Positions 32,171 to 36,234 of a stretch of 64,000 nucleotides of DNA are shown here, in pieces. Under the pieces are notes generated by a model. The model did not search any database, had not been told where the DNA came from, and was given only the letters and a program-made list of their open reading frames with translations. The translations under genes were made by a program, and so were the position numbers. The stretch lies in the NCBI RefSeq assembly GCF_001997345.1, contig NZ_CP019606.1, positions 1,240,001 to 1,304,000 on the forward strand, given 5' to 3'. The stretch is from Tessaracoccus aquimaris. Its GTDB lineage: Bacteria > Actinomycetota > Actinomycetes > Propionibacteriales > Propionibacteriaceae. Each line of letters begins with the position of its first letter. The first letter of the stretch is position 1.

Positions 32171-32811
32171 CGGGTCACCTCCCGACGCTGCGAGACGGGG
32201 GTGATCGGGGTGCCAGCGAGGATGTCTCGCGCCGTGACCATCGTGGGTCGGCCGGTCGCGAGCGTCCACAGCCGCGAGGTGACCCAGTTCAAGGGGCGCT
32301 GCGCCAACCGGGAGACGACCTGCATCACGACCCAGCCCGCAGCGGAGAACCCGAGCGACCACAGCAGGCTGACGTCGAAGGCGCTGGCGACGCCGATCAC
32401 GAGGATCAGGAAGCTCCACCCCTCGAGGATCCTGCCGAGCAGCAGTCCGAGGTGCGGGAGCGCCGTCGCGAAGTTCCACACCAGCGGCGCCGTCGACACC
32501 AGCCCGACGACGATCAGCGGCAGCAGCGGCATCGGGCCGCGCACCAGGGACGCCACGCCCCAGGTGATGGCGGCCTGCAGCACGTGCAGGAACGCAAGCG
32601 AGACCGCAGAGAGCAGCAGGCTGGTCAGGAGGCGCCAGCCGTTGATCTTGTTGAGCAGCAGGATCGCGATGTGTCCGAGCATCGTGGAGGCGGCGGCTAG
32701 CAGCGCCACGCCGAGCGCTGGCCACAGCAGCGTCATGGGCGCGTCATCGACGCGCAGGAACAGCCGAGGGTCTAGCCCAAGGGCCGCCCAGAGCACGCGC
32801 AGGACCTCCAC
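32167..32811 (-). CDS. multi-pass membrane protein of unknown function
   Basis: 214 residues with about five membrane helices: TLLWPALGVALLAAASTMLG, LLTSLLLSAVSLAFLHVLQA, PLLPLIVVGLVSTAPLVWNF, WSFLILVIGVASAF and LLWSLGFSAAGWVVMQVV. The C-terminal 50 residues are polar. No family is recognised. It is co-transcribed with the hydrolase-like gene (four-base overlap), suggesting the two proteins work together in the envelope. It is divergent from the rtcB leader. Confidence 0.72.
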   Translation of the reverse strand: MEVLRVLWAALGLDPRLFLRVDDAPMTLLWPALGVALLAAASTMLGHIAILLLNKINGWRLLTSLLLSAVSLAFLHVLQAAITWGVASLVRGPMPLLPLIVVGLVSTAPLVWNFATALPHLGLLLGRILEGWSFLILVIGVASAFDVSLLWSLGFSAAGWVVMQVVSRLAQRPLNWVTSRLWTLATGRPTMVTARDILAGTPITPVSQRREVTR

Positions 32812-32860
32812 GGGTTCATCTTGTCACGTCGGGCCTCGTGGGTGACGGCGCGACTCATCG

Positions 32861-32890
32861 TTGACGCCGGCCGCGCGGGCGGGCTATCTT
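32861..32890 (+). promoter_or_regulatory. sigma70-type promoter of the rtcB leader
   Basis: TTGACG (32861-32866) and TATCTT (32885-32890) are separated by 18 bases. The expected start of transcription, about 7 bases on, falls at 32897, the first base of an 8-bp hairpin. This coincidence supports both the promoter and the leader RNA. Confidence 0.65.
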
Positions 32891-32896
32891 GGCTAG

Positions 32897-33134
32897 TCCG
32901 CGTCACGGGACGCGGAACGAGTCCAGGAGCGACGTGCTGAAGTTCCAGCGCCAAGAAGCGGTGCAGCCGATGAGCTGCTACCGCCTTCTCGTCGTCCCTG
33001 AGGCACGCGGCTGACCGATCTACTGATCAATCTCTGGCCCCGTAACCGCTCAGGTTCGGGGCCTCATGTGTATCCGCGGCCATCACCGCACATGATTCCC
33101 CGACCAGCGACTCGTCCTGTTCAAGGAAGGAATC
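32897..33134 (+). ncRNA. structured 5' leader of rtcB
   Basis: About 238 nt from the predicted transcript start to the rtcB ATG. It begins with the hairpin TCCGCGTC-ACGG-GACGCGGA (32897-32916, 8 bp), carries a ribosome site AGGAG and a 26-codon ORF (32934-33014), then an 11-bp hairpin with one bulged base: GGCCCCG-T-AACC, loop GCTCA, GGTT-CGGGGCC (33036-33063). A further GATTCC and the rtcB ribosome site AAGGAAGG follow. The plan is that of an attenuation or translation-coupled leader. No named riboswitch class is recognised. Confidence 0.55.
32934..33014 (+). CDS. 26-residue upstream ORF (leader peptide) of rtcB
   Basis: GTG start with AGGAG five bases upstream; the product reads VLKFQRQEAVQPMSCYRLLV then VPEARG and stop. 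It ends 22 bases before the large hairpin of the leader, a spacing that lets a ribosome on the ORF influence folding. The single Cys and the Leu-Leu-Val-Val run are the only notable residues. An internal ATG (MSCYRLLVVPEARG) is an alternative start. Expression is inferred from position and ribosome site. Confidence 0.5.
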   Translation: MLKFQRQEAVQPMSCYRLLVVPEARG

Positions 33135-34304
33135 ATGGAACACCTCACCAAACGGCTCGTCTCATGGGCAAGCATCCTGGACGAGCAGACGCTCGACCAG
33201 GCGCGCACCGCCTCGACGCTGCCGTTCATCTACCCGCATCTGGCGCTGATGCCCGACGCCCACCTGGGCAAGGGCGCGACCGTCGGATCGGTCATCCCGA
33301 CGCTCGGGGCGATCATCCCCGCGGCGGTCGGAGTCGACATCGGCTGCGGCATGATCGCAGTGCGGACGCAGTTCACCAAGGCACAGGTGGCCGCCGTCGA
33401 TCTCGCCGCGCTGCGGGTCGCGATCGAACGCGCGATCCCGCTGTCGGCGGGGCACCACAACGCGCGGGTGCTGCCGAGCGCCGAGCCGCGCATCCAGGAA
33501 CTGGAGTCGCTTGCGGAGCGCTCCGGCCTCGACCCGGCAGGCTACGCGGGCAACTGGCGCCTCCAGCTCGGCTCGCTCGGCTCCGGGAACCACTTCATCG
33601 AGGTGACGGCTGACGAGAACGACGCGGTCTGGCTGTTCCTGCACTCAGGCTCCCGCGGTATCGGGAACAAGATCGCCGGGCATCACATCCAGGTGGCGCA
33701 GCGGCTCGCGAAGCAGTGGTGGATCGAGTTGCCAGACCCGGACCTGGCCTACCTCGTCGAGGGCACGGCCGAGTTCACCCGCTACATCGCCGAGCTGAGG
33801 TGGGCCCAGCACTTCGCGCTGCTGAACCGCGATGAGATGATGGATCGCGTCGTCGCCCGGATGGCGGCCGCCATGGGCGAGGGCGTCCAGGAGTTGGAGC
33901 GGGTCAACTGCCACCACAACTTCACCGAGCGCGAACGGCACTTCGGCAAGGACGTCTGGGTCTCCCGGAAGGGTGCCATCAAGGCCGACGAGGGACTCGC
34001 GGGCCTGATCCCCGGGTCCATGGGCACCGCCAGCTACGTCGTCAGCGGGCTGGGTAACCCGGTGTCGCTCAACTCGGCACCGCACGGTGCCGGACGGGCG
34101 TTCTCGAGGTCGCAGGCGCGGCGGACGTTCACGCGCGAACAGTTGCGGGAGTCGATGCGGGGCATCGAGTACCGCGACACCGACGCGTTCATCGACGAGA
34201 TCCCCGCGGCCTACAAGCCGATCGACCAGGTGATGGCCGACTCGGCTGGGCTGGTCGAGATCCGCCACACGCTGCACCAGTTGGTCAACGTGAAGGGCGA
34301 CTGA
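33135..34304 (+). CDS. rtcB: RNA-splicing ligase RtcB
   Basis: Joins RNA ends with 2',3'-cyclic or 3'-phosphate to 5'-OH using GTP and Mn2+. 389 residues. Metal and GTP motifs in order: DAHLGKGATVGSVIP (~41-55), GVDIGCGMIAVRT with the metal Cys at 71, LGSGNHFIEV, HSGSRGIGNKI, NCHHN (~255), PGSMGTASYV, and the guanylated His in SAPHGAGRAFSR (His 317). In bacteria RtcB serves RNA repair after ribotoxin or stress damage, including tRNA and rRNA. No archease, RtcA or RtcR gene is adjacent; control appears to lie in its leader RNA. Confidence 0.95.
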   Translation: MEHLTKRLVSWASILDEQTLDQARTASTLPFIYPHLALMPDAHLGKGATVGSVIPTLGAIIPAAVGVDIGCGMIAVRTQFTKAQVAAVDLAALRVAIERAIPLSAGHHNARVLPSAEPRIQELESLAERSGLDPAGYAGNWRLQLGSLGSGNHFIEVTADENDAVWLFLHSGSRGIGNKIAGHHIQVAQRLAKQWWIELPDPDLAYLVEGTAEFTRYIAELRWAQHFALLNRDEMMDRVVARMAAAMGEGVQELERVNCHHNFTERERHFGKDVWVSRKGAIKADEGLAGLIPGSMGTASYVVSGLGNPVSLNSAPHGAGRAFSRSQARRTFTREQLRESMRGIEYRDTDAFIDEIPAAYKPIDQVMADSAGLVEIRHTLHQLVNVKGD

Positions 34305-34308
34305 ACCT

Positions 34309-34336
34309 CGCGCCGCGACCCTCGGGTGGCGGCGCG
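34309..34336. terminator. bidirectional hairpin between rtcB and the convergent gene
   Basis: CGCGCCGC at 34309-34316 pairs with GCGGCGCG at 34329-34336 (8 bp, 12-base loop). It fills the 42 bases between two convergent genes. No U-run, which is common for terminators in high-GC actinobacteria. Confidence 0.6.
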
Positions 34337-34346
34337 GGGCACTCGC

Positions 34347-35132
34347 CTACTGGATGCCGAAGGCGATCAGTTCGTCGAAGGCGCTCAGCAGCGCGGCGTC
34401 ACCCTCGCGGGTGGTGGTGGCCGGCCGCGACCAGACGAGCATGTCGAGTTCCTGGGCGGGCCCTGCGATCACGGCCGCGGGCACAGCGCCCTCGGGAGCC
34501 CTGCCGCCGCCGATCTGGTCGACGAAGTCGTTGCCCCAGGCGGTCCCGTTCCACCGGTACAGCTCGACGAGCCGGGGCTCTTCGTCGGTGGGGCGCAGTT
34601 CGACGACGCCGAGCGGGGTGCGCGTGGCGTCTGCCGGCACCCAGTTCCACATCACGTCGAGGACGTGGTCGATCCCGCGACCCGCGACCTCCGGGTCGAT
34701 CGGCGAGATCGGCAGCCCGGCGGTCAGTTCGGCGTCGACGCGATGGATGGTGGCCTCGTGCGGCTGCATCCGCTCGGTGAACCCGACGCTCTTGTCGCCG
34801 GGGAACCAACTCCACGACGGCGCGTCGAGGGGGCCGGACAGCAGCGCGGCGATCAGGTCCTCGGTGGCGCGCTCGCGACGGTCGAGCACCTCCGCGCGGG
34901 TCGCGGGGCGCGGCGGCTGGGCTGCCTCGAGCCGTTCGACCTCGGCGTCGCTTGTCGCCCCGGACGAAATGACCGACGCCCAGAACAGGTGGACCTCGGT
35001 GAGGTGCCACAGCAGGTCGTCTGCGTTCCAGCCCGGGCAGGTCGGGACCGGCGTTGCGGCGTCGATCCCCCGGATCACGTCGGCGAGGCGGCGCGCCTCG
35101 GCCCTGATCACATGCGTGGCTTCGTAGCTCAT
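34347..35132 (-). CDS. mycothiol-dependent maleylpyruvate isomerase family protein
   Basis: 261 residues. The N-terminal DinB-like four-helix domain has the pattern VPTCPGWNADDLLWHLTEVHLFW (PGW and the metal-binding HLTEVH at ~45-55), and a later metal ligand in ERMQPHEATIHRVDAELTAG. This is the MDMPI/DinB fold of mycothiol-using enzymes. The C-terminal part is the family's SCP2-like domain. The substrate is not known; mycothiol use is inferred from the family and lineage. The ATG at 35132 gives MSYEATHVIRAEARRLAD, a typical start. Confidence 0.85.
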   Translation of the reverse strand: MSYEATHVIRAEARRLADVIRGIDAATPVPTCPGWNADDLLWHLTEVHLFWASVISSGATSDAEVERLEAAQPPRPATRAEVLDRRERATEDLIAALLSGPLDAPSWSWFPGDKSVGFTERMQPHEATIHRVDAELTAGLPISPIDPEVAGRGIDHVLDVMWNWVPADATRTPLGVVELRPTDEEPRLVELYRWNGTAWGNDFVDQIGGGRAPEGAVPAAVIAGPAQELDMLVWSRPATTTREGDAALLSAFDELIAFGIQ

Positions 35133-35154
35133 GCGCGACAGCCTAGAGGCTGCC

Positions 35155-36234
35155 TCAGACAAGTTCCGCGTAGCTGCGGGAGAGCACGTCCTCGTCCGGG
35201 TCGGCGAGCGCCGTGACGGACCCGACGGCGCGGAGCCCGACCAGCCGCAGCGACGACCCGCGGGCCTTCTTGTCGAGGCTCATGATGGGTCTGAGGTCGG
35301 AGAACGGTGCCGGGTAGCTGAGTGGTAGCCCGAGCCCGCCGAGCAGTTCGTCGTGCAGCGCGACGGTGTCGTCGTCGAGGCCCAGCAGGTCGCGGGAGAC
35401 GCGCGCCATCCAGGCCATCCCGACGCTGATCGCCTGGCCGTGCCGCCAGGTGAAGCCCGCGTGCTTCTCGATGGCGTGGCCAAGGGTGTGGCCGTAGTTG
35501 AGGGCCTCACGCCCGACGTTGTCGCCGACGGAGGTGGCCTCGGTGAAGTCCGCGGCGACGACCCCCGCCTTGACGGCGATCGCCCGGCGGACGAGTTCGG
35601 CGAACCGGTCGCTGGTCACGTCGCGGCTGTCTGCGAGGTCCTCCGAGGCGAGTCGCAGAATCTCCGGGTCGGAGATGAAGCCGCACTTGACGACCTCCGC
35701 GAGCCCGGAGGCGACCTCTTCGGGGGCCAGCCCGCCGAGCAGATCGAGGTCGCACAGCACCGCGCGCGGCTCGTAGAACGCGCCGACCAGGTTCTTGCCC
35801 GCCGTCAGGTTGATCCCCGTCTTGCCGCCGACCGCCGCGTCGACCATGCCGAGCACCGACGTCGGGACGCTGACGTAGCCGACGCCACGCAGCCAGGAGG
35901 CGGCGACGAAGCCTGCGAGGTCTGTCGTGGTGCCGCCGCCGACGCCGATCACCAGATCGTTGCGGGTGAACCCGGCCGCCGCGAGCGCGTCCCAGCAGTC
36001 GGCGAGCACCTGCGGGGTCTTGGCGGCCTCCGCGTCCGGCACGGCGATCAGCGTCGCGGGGCGATCGACCAGCGCGGCGACCCGTTCGGCCAGCGCCGCG
36101 AGCGGCGCGGGATGGATGACGGCGACCCGGCTGGCGTCCGCGACGAGGGAGGGAAGCGCCGCGAGGGCGCCGCCCGCGATGGTCACGTCGTAGGGTCCGA
36201 GCCCCGACTCGACCCGGACGACGGCGCCGCTCAC
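35155..36234 (-). CDS. aroB: 3-dehydroquinate synthase
   Basis: Second step of the shikimate pathway: DAHP to 3-dehydroquinate, needing NAD and a divalent metal. 359 residues. NAD-binding GVGGGTTTDLAGFVAA at ~95, VPTSVLGMVDAAVGGKTGIN with the active-site Lys at ~140, GLAEVVKCGFI (metal Glu) and the metal His residues in NYGHTLGHAIE (~260) and WRHGQAISVG. The GTG at 36234 overlaps the aroK stop (GTGA), preferred over the ATG at 36249, which lies within aroK. Confidence 0.95.
   Translation of the reverse strand: MSGAVVRVESGLGPYDVTIAGGALAALPSLVADASRVAVIHPAPLAALAERVAALVDRPATLIAVPDAEAAKTPQVLADCWDALAAAGFTRNDLVIGVGGGTTTDLAGFVAASWLRGVGYVSVPTSVLGMVDAAVGGKTGINLTAGKNLVGAFYEPRAVLCDLDLLGGLAPEEVASGLAEVVKCGFISDPEILRLASEDLADSRDVTSDRFAELVRRAIAVKAGVVAADFTEATSVGDNVGREALNYGHTLGHAIEKHAGFTWRHGQAISVGMAWMARVSRDLLGLDDDTVALHDELLGGLGLPLSYPAPFSDLRPIMSLDKKARGSSLRLVGLRAVGSVTALADPDEDVLSRSYAELV

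Follow-up and report, generated by a model that had tools for sequence, protein, structure and literature searches.

The rtcB Locus and Its Leader

The stretch of DNA analyzed here (64,000 nucleotides of the Tessaracoccus aquimaris genome, referred to as the window) carries the RNA ligase gene rtcB on the forward strand, preceded by a leader with its own promoter, a short upstream open reading frame (uORF), and several hairpins (Table 1). The genome is 3.93 Mb in size, consists of a single contig of which the window spans positions 1,240,001 to 1,304,000, and contains one match to the window's RtcB at E ≤ 0.001. Direct reading of the window sequence found the leader anatomy given by the first-pass annotation to be exact to the base. 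The promoter and the 8-bp hairpin that it proposed were borne out, the promoter also being the single site in a scan of positions 32600 to 33300 (shuffled sequences averaged 0.1), and transcription is predicted to start at this hairpin. The ribosome site, the 26-codon frame, and the one-bulge hairpin with the loop GCTCA before rtcB were confirmed in the same way. Overlooked at that stage was the ability of the 3' end of the uORF to pair both with the uORF's own Shine-Dalgarno (SD) region and with the 5' arm of the hairpin. The fold of the 242-nt leader had a z score of -4.71 and was better than 200 of 200 shuffles.

Another frame, ending in TGA at 32999 to 33001 (...LPPSRRP), at first sight resembles the C terminus of the Microbacterium uORFs; inspection by eye revealed no start codon for it in the vicinity of the SD, and it was rejected as the uORF, the GTG frame instead aligning with the uORF of a related leader (L002; see below). 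ARAGORN found no tRNA gene in the window.

Table 1. Features of the rtcB leader (positions within the window; 1:2, 2:3, and 3:4 denote pairings between numbered regions)
Feature	Position	Strand	Details and basis
Sigma-70-type promoter	32861..32890	+	-35 TTGACG (32861-32866), 18-nt spacer, -10 TATCTT (32885-32890)
8-bp hairpin, predicted 5' end of transcript	32897..32916	+	Window sequence
Region 1, SD region of uORF	32917..32935	+	AGGAG at 32925-32929; pairs with 32989-33008 (duplex, fold)
uORF, 26 codons	32934..33014	+	GTG start at 32934, TGA stop, peptide MLKFQRQEAVQPMSCYRLLVVPEARG; in L002, an equally long uORF with an ATG start occupies the corresponding place
Long hairpin within uORF	32954..32989	+	14 pairs, two bulged bases, loop CGATGA; folds; juxtaposes regions 1 and 2
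Region 2, first part	32989..33008	+	3' codons of uORF complementary to its own SD; 1:2 duplex -20.9 kcal/mol
Region 2, second part (antiterminator)	33001..33013	+	Last uORF codons complementary to 5' arm of hairpin; 2:3 duplex -10.8 kcal/mol; forms in stalled-ribosome fold
Small hairpin GATC-TACT-GATC	33017..33028	+	Nested in antiterminator; folds
Region 3	33035..33048	+	5' arm common to antiterminator and terminator-type hairpin; duplex and folds
Terminator-type hairpin (3:4)	33036..33063	+	11 bp, bulged U at 33043, loop GCTCA, poor T-run; aligns with T-run-bearing hairpin of relatives
Hairpin CATGTG..CACATG	33065..33094	+	Follows terminator-type hairpin; common to window and L002, by eye
SD region of rtcB	33123..33132	+	AAGGAAGGAA; window sequence
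rtcB, RNA ligase	33135..34304	+	389 aa, ATG at 33135; PF01139, 390.4 bits, E = 1.6e-116

Known Regulators and RNA Families

A search of the window's genome for RtcR (PF06956) returned 0 matches, the E. coli control being detected, and RtcA had no match there either; therefore, the proteobacterial sensor is missing. Neither the window nor any of 11 related loci matched an Rfam cis-regulatory family above its gathering score (the best weak match, nhaA-I, reached 19.3 bits against a cut-off of 37 and lay on the other strand), and a metabolite riboswitch or known leader class was rejected for lack of an Rfam match.

Occurrence of the Leader among Relatives

RtcB was matched in 20 of the 39 genomes of the genus, comprising the window's own, one close match (84%; genome G007, leader L002), and 18 distant matches (44 to 49%). 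Further upstream regions came from a scan of a species-genome collection, from which the best 80 of 585 relatives were taken, from a family search of 198 genomes (18 with E ≤ 1e-120), and from a class-wide draw of 393 genomes (172 with E ≤ 1e-60). An automatic rule (SD, uORF, and a CCCCG-type hairpin no more than 50 nt from the uORF stop) selected 55 of 84 upstream regions; removal of L090, whose hairpin was spurious, left 54, and six leaders from the class survey brought the set to 60. L049, in which uORF and hairpin lie further away, was left out of this count. Because the selection rule demands SD, uORF, and hairpin alike, their joint presence in the 60 leaders is not independent evidence; the independent evidence for the element is the pairings, the keeping of the frame, and the model search.

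The first-pass annotation had staked its reading on conservation upstream of rtcB in relatives, and such conservation was found in L002 and 58 further leaders. Microbacteriaceae or family f32 contributed 52 of the 60 leaders, with Microbacterium, Agromyces, Curtobacterium, Herbiconiux, Rathayibacter, Frondihabitans, Leifsonia, and other genera represented; the others are from one Brevibacterium, two Micrococcaceae, and five genomes closer to the window, four belonging to its family and one to its order. L002 has a promoter at the matching place (TTGACC..TACCGT), a 5' hairpin, CCCAGGAGTGACG-ATG, and a 26-codon uORF encoding a different peptide, and a hairpin of differing sequence can be drawn by eye at the equivalent of 32954 to 32989. 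A promoter was found in 38 of the 60 leaders with a permissive pattern used without a chance control. Near the matching place, relatives have 5' hairpins of differing sequence, and the count of 60/60 for these comes from a permissive rule, likewise without a chance control, some of them clearly being another hairpin. Among the best 80 of the 585 relatives, the Cellulomonas rows and most Arthrobacter rows failed the automatic rule, and such a leader was absent from 61 of 67 rtcB upstream regions of the class survey, as judged by eye from listed ORFs and hairpins. In L123, a hairpin with perfect pairing (ATGCCCGGTGG..CCACCGGGCAT) and a T-rich tail lies approximately 141 to 116 bases before rtcB, and the automatic rule gives no uORF.

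In an RtcB tree of 125 rows, built by a quick method with no bootstrap, the leader label required 6 changes, compared with 42 when labels were shuffled. The window and L002 formed one clade beside a 68-row clade containing 55 leaders, and one Nocardioides row stood among genomes of the window's order.

Linkage was also observed with a covariance model (R1) of the uORF end and hairpin, run on 59 genomes of a Microbacterium-type genus. It gave 12 matches of at least 74 bits, one per genome, with the next at 35 bits, and all 12 lie directly before rtcB. Of these 59 genomes, 14 have rtcB at E ≤ 1e-60, namely, the same 12, one with a distant RtcB (46%), and one with an RtcB at 71% whose gene (L222) follows an unrelated frame and has no leader. 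In this genus, rtcB is an accessory gene, and the leader travels with it. Among R1 matches below 36 bits, five were viewed by eye (L204 to L208), and the four other than L207 looked like hairpins that follow the end of a gene. In the window's own genome, the model ranked the leader second (19.6 bits), below a 25.4-bit match at L184, which was discounted as a chance match because long frames fill the surrounding stretch. The rtcB of G623 (contig 6, positions 34235 to 35218) has an internal TGA, and its leader (L202) still scores 80.5 bits.

Alternative Pairings

The last codons of the uORF (region 2) are complementary to two partners, the uORF SD (1:2) and the hairpin 5' arm (2:3), and 2:3 competes with the terminator (3:4) for that arm. 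Examples of such complementarity include CGGTGCG/CGCACCG (L022), GGCACG/CGTGCC (Curtobacterium), CGGCAC/GTGCCG (Agromyces), and GGGGCTCG/CGAGCCCC (L105). In 52 leaders (the set without L104, L105, and the six class-survey leaders), the mean energy of a leader's own 2:3 duplex was -15.35, compared with -13.06 (SD, 0.31) for permuted partners, and 0 of 20,000 permutations were as low, relatedness among the leaders being retained in this comparison.

When RNA in the stalled-ribosome state was folded, at least 6 of 10 bases of the hairpin 5' arm paired upstream in 55 of the 60 leaders (21.1 expected from dinucleotide shuffles of region 2), and with a wider span of RNA they did so in 56 (22.2 expected); L104 and L105 failed with the narrow span and formed the antiterminator with the wider one. 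Folding of a segment that starts 30 nt ahead of the stop and ends with region 3 gave upstream pairing of the arm in 57/60 under a looser 5-base rule without shuffles. With a ribosome placed at the uORF stop, the terminator formed in all 60, and in free RNA the uORF SD was paired downstream in 54, the terminator formed in 42, and the antiterminator formed in 18, these being counts of folds without shuffles. In a trimmed shuffle test, duplex z scores were modest, averaging -1.28 for 2:3 and -1.53 for 1:2 over the 60 leaders, with -0.63 and -1.32, respectively, in the window, and the stalled-state fold had z scores of -1.58 in the window and -0.39 in L002. In the full minimum-energy fold of the window, 1:2 and 2:3 coexist, and a shorter stretch folds as 1:2 plus the terminator. 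Because 1:2 and 2:3 are compatible in the window, a trp-like lock is not strict there. An antiterminator that uses one arm of the terminator and that a ribosome at the uORF stop would mask is predicted for most of the 60 leaders and is weak in the window taken alone.

Some covariation accompanies these pairings. In 25 Microbacterium-type rows (24 distinct), 87.9% of the 2:3 cells pair, compared with 21.6 to 47.2% for slid versions. The 2:3 covariation score (0.062) was reached by 2 of 500 shuffles, and the version slid by -3 scored higher (0.077). Only a single 2:3 pair had changes in both of its bases, and 216 of 500 shuffles had as many. In the same set, the terminator paired in 94.4% of cells and had no covariation. 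In most Microbacterium-type leaders, the terminator is interrupted (CCCCG-C-ACC..GGT-C-CGGGG), the equivalent in the window being the bulged U, and the interrupting base is unpaired in the terminator and paired in the antiterminator. This pair (21-59) is GC in 20, AU in 3, and GU in 1 of the 24 distinct rows: the 20 have an interrupting C that pairs with G (uORF codon GCG or GTG), L029, L036, and L043 have U with the uORF codon GCA, and L037 keeps GCG with U as a G-U pair. The change from GCG to GCA is synonymous in the uORF (both Ala). We attribute the joint change of GCG/GCA and C/U to selection on 2:3 because neither the terminator nor the peptide explains it, and the three U/GCA rows may represent one or two events.

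Frame and Composition of the uORF

The uORFs of the 60 leaders range from 19 to 44 codons. Where the end is of the CCCTCCGG type (28 leaders), the uORF is 27, 28, 29, 30, 32, 33, or 38 codons long, the length in L022 being counted from an inner ATG, and the peptides end alike. In 50 close pairs, substitutions were spread evenly over the three codon positions (164/169/180), and codon changes were 98 synonymous versus 288 nonsynonymous. We conclude that the frame is kept and the peptide is not, because lengths vary with like ends and the body has no protein conservation.

In 39 nonredundant uORFs, Gln makes up 9.2% of residues, compared with 2.7% in a background of 194 ORFs taken from these loci (3.4-fold; P = 1e-27), and is mixed with Arg (1.6-fold), Asn (1.9-fold), and Tyr (1.7-fold), while Gly is depleted (0.35-fold). 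Gln is present in 42 of 43 nonredundant uORFs (the exception is L104) and occurs twice or more in 34 of the 43 (21% expected); the window uORF has three Gln codons (CAG, CAA, and CAG). A UAG stop ends 24 of 43 uORFs and 34 of 261 background ORFs (P = 4e-9), and in some genera this stop is partly tied to paired RNA. The skew in composition may be partly dictated by RNA structure. Control codons for one amino acid are absent, and no residue run in the uORFs exceeds 3; the leader would work like a trp-type attenuator but is no amino acid attenuator.

A Second uORF Arrangement in the Genus

The distant RtcB family of the window's genus has a uORF leader in 15 of 18 upstream regions by script; a uORF was seen by eye in L015, and L016 and L019 had no rtcB start by script. 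In many of these leaders, the SD is GAGAGG, CCTCTC follows the stop, and then come a second GAGAGG and a CCCCTGT-type stretch able to pair with the rtcB SD. L003, L006 to L014, L017, L018, and L020 have this different uORF leader, many of them with possible GAGAGG/CCTCTC/GAGAGG alternative pairings and a stretch that may hide the rtcB SD. In L004 and L005, a long hairpin separates 24-codon uORFs (MNQCSRLQRE.. and MSKQPRLQRE..) from the distant rtcB. Nine nonredundant peptides of this family contain 7.4% Gln (P = 2e-3 versus the window's own background) and 17.7% Arg. Apparently, these leaders put the same idea into practice at the level of translation within the window's genus. uORF leaders seem to precede at least two different RtcB families, which hints that uORF control has been used repeatedly before rtcB.

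Terminator-Type Hairpin and Alternative Explanations

The hairpin lies 12 to 36 nt after the uORF stop and is present in 60/60 leaders, being itself part of the selection rule; in 48 of the 60, the 9 nt that follow the stem include 4 or more T, and 12 fall below this. In the window, the hairpin was not called by the terminator scan because its T-run is poor (tail CTCATGTGT), and it meets the looser count with 4 T in 9 nt. The poor T-run would agree with uORF control that acts, at least in the window, on rtcB translation or through Rho and not by intrinsic termination. The distant rtcB family of the genus offers a possible parallel, as the far end of its uORF leaders can pair with the rtcB SD (e.g., CCCCTGT with ACAGGAG), and E. 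coli toiL, as described in the relevant part of PMC12121999, represses translation with Rho acting subsequently. However, the T content of 48 of the 60 class-I leaders argues against this, and in the window fold the rtcB SD is touched only by a weak 3-pair hairpin; we regard such a route as unlikely.

The same weak T-run, together with the modest pairing scores and the GTG start, could instead mark the window copy as a decaying relic of an attenuator, with rtcB always on, and among the 39 genomes of the genus the window's RtcB occurs only in the window's genome and G007. Yet L002 and the window have almost the same hairpin and flank despite a diverged uORF body, and both retain the 26-codon open frame; we consider decay quite improbable. 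By its sequence, the window copy is a recognizable but weaker-looking member of the conserved rtcB-linked leaders. That the uORF encodes a functional small protein and precedes rtcB by chance would account for the keeping of frame, start, and stop and for the C terminus RYESYPPARAV common to Microbacterium-type leaders. Against it, the body has no sign of purifying selection, the peptides of different genera look unrelated by eye, and the shared C terminus is a paired RNA region that changes synonymously with its partner; a functional peptide is disfavored by the unconserved body, and we consider this explanation exceedingly improbable.

Comparison with Known Systems

Attenuators of the trp/his type have a leader ORF, three overlapping pairings, and a terminator just after the leader stop. 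The rtcB leader is like them in its leader ORF with its own SD, its 1:2/2:3/3:4 pairings, and its terminator-type hairpin after the stop, and the short leader ORF of the trp type has an apparent counterpart in the SD and open frame of the 60 leaders, which is kept through changes in length. It differs in that there is no run of a single control codon, that region 1 is the uORF's own SD, and that the gene it precedes serves RNA repair and not amino acid synthesis. The first-pass annotation recognized no known class in the leader; this stands with respect to Rfam and not with respect to the logic of the leader, which is that of known ribosome-mediated attenuators (trp and whiB7 types).

The passages of PMC12121999 and PMC10287673 that concern whiB7/wblC describe an actinobacterial uORF attenuator, in this respect like the rtcB leader, that is believed to respond to ribosome stalling of several kinds, stalling after tRNA cleavage among them; in the corresponding part of PMC10287673, the tRNA-cleaving VapC5 raises whiB7, itself uORF attenuated. 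The likeness is one of plan, and the gene controlled here is the repair enzyme itself and not a transcription factor. E. coli toiL, a uORF before topAI, is presented in the relevant section of PMC12121999 as a multisignal leader that senses stalling along its length, as the single uORF of the rtcB leader may; according to the same section, toiL occludes the ribosome site of topAI, with Rho termination as the outcome, whereas class-I rtcB leaders have an intrinsic-type hairpin. For Salmonella, the pertinent text of PMC7790460 reports that tRNA fragments activate RtcR, which controls rtcBA. That system shares the enzyme family with the rtcB leader and would share damage-linked induction, but RtcR is a protein sensor of tRNA fragments, and the window's genome has no match to it.

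Proposed Mechanism and Implications

The translation-dependent control of rtcB that was first proposed is supported and is the best fit to the alternative pairings. We think it probable that the leader is a ribosome-mediated attenuator coupling rtcB expression to trouble in elongation. Transcription would begin at the 5' hairpin, and ribosomes would translate the uORF. A ribosome reaching the uORF stop would cover region 2, so that the terminator-type hairpin forms and transcription halts before rtcB, although in the window the step halted by this hairpin may be other than transcription. A ribosome stalled earlier, perhaps by damaged tRNA, an antibiotic, or a toxin, would leave region 2 uncovered, so that it pairs with the hairpin 5' arm as an antiterminator, and rtcB would be made. 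In Microbacterium-type leaders, an untranslated uORF would leave region 2 locked to its own SD, with the default being off. The peptide would be irrelevant, and the passage of ribosomes through the Gln-rich codons (also Arg, Asn, and Tyr) would decide the outcome. We infer that the leader probably responds to an impairment of translation of a sort that RtcB is able to repair, cleaved tRNA being an example.

A more specific role, which we hold to be unlikely, is that the uORF serves as bait for RNA-cutting toxins through codons cut by RelE-type enzymes or codons of tRNAs destroyed by tRNases (Gln above all). A cut or stall in the uORF would keep ribosomes from reaching region 2, the antiterminator would form, and the ligase would be made. 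RtcB ligase can seal the ends left by such RNA cutting, and if the bait role is true, the leader would be a self-contained sensor of RNA damage in place of RtcR. RelE cuts UAG and UGA stops and UCG and CAG codons well, according to the relevant part of PMC2807027, and because UGA is also well cut, it is no counter-choice. Over background, CAA is enriched 9.7-fold and CAG 3.2-fold, and UCG is not enriched (0.86); the excess of CAG and of UAG stops would suit the bait role. Toxin bait, Gln-tRNA, and a general stalling sensor are not separated by these data because UCG is unenriched, CAA is enriched above CAG, and UGA is also cut.

Among the open-licence papers listed in literature searches, we saw no account of a uORF or an attenuator upstream of rtcB and no description of RtcB induction upon RNA cutting in bacteria without RtcR. 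To return to the ribosome-mediated attenuator, which we favor, it would extend this mode of control from amino acids and antibiotics to RNA repair and would be one answer to how RtcB is induced in RtcR-less bacteria when RNA is cut. If the leader does respond to stalled ribosomes, its signal could be tested via the codon content of the uORF, and it may provide a ready reporter of RNA damage for Actinobacteria.
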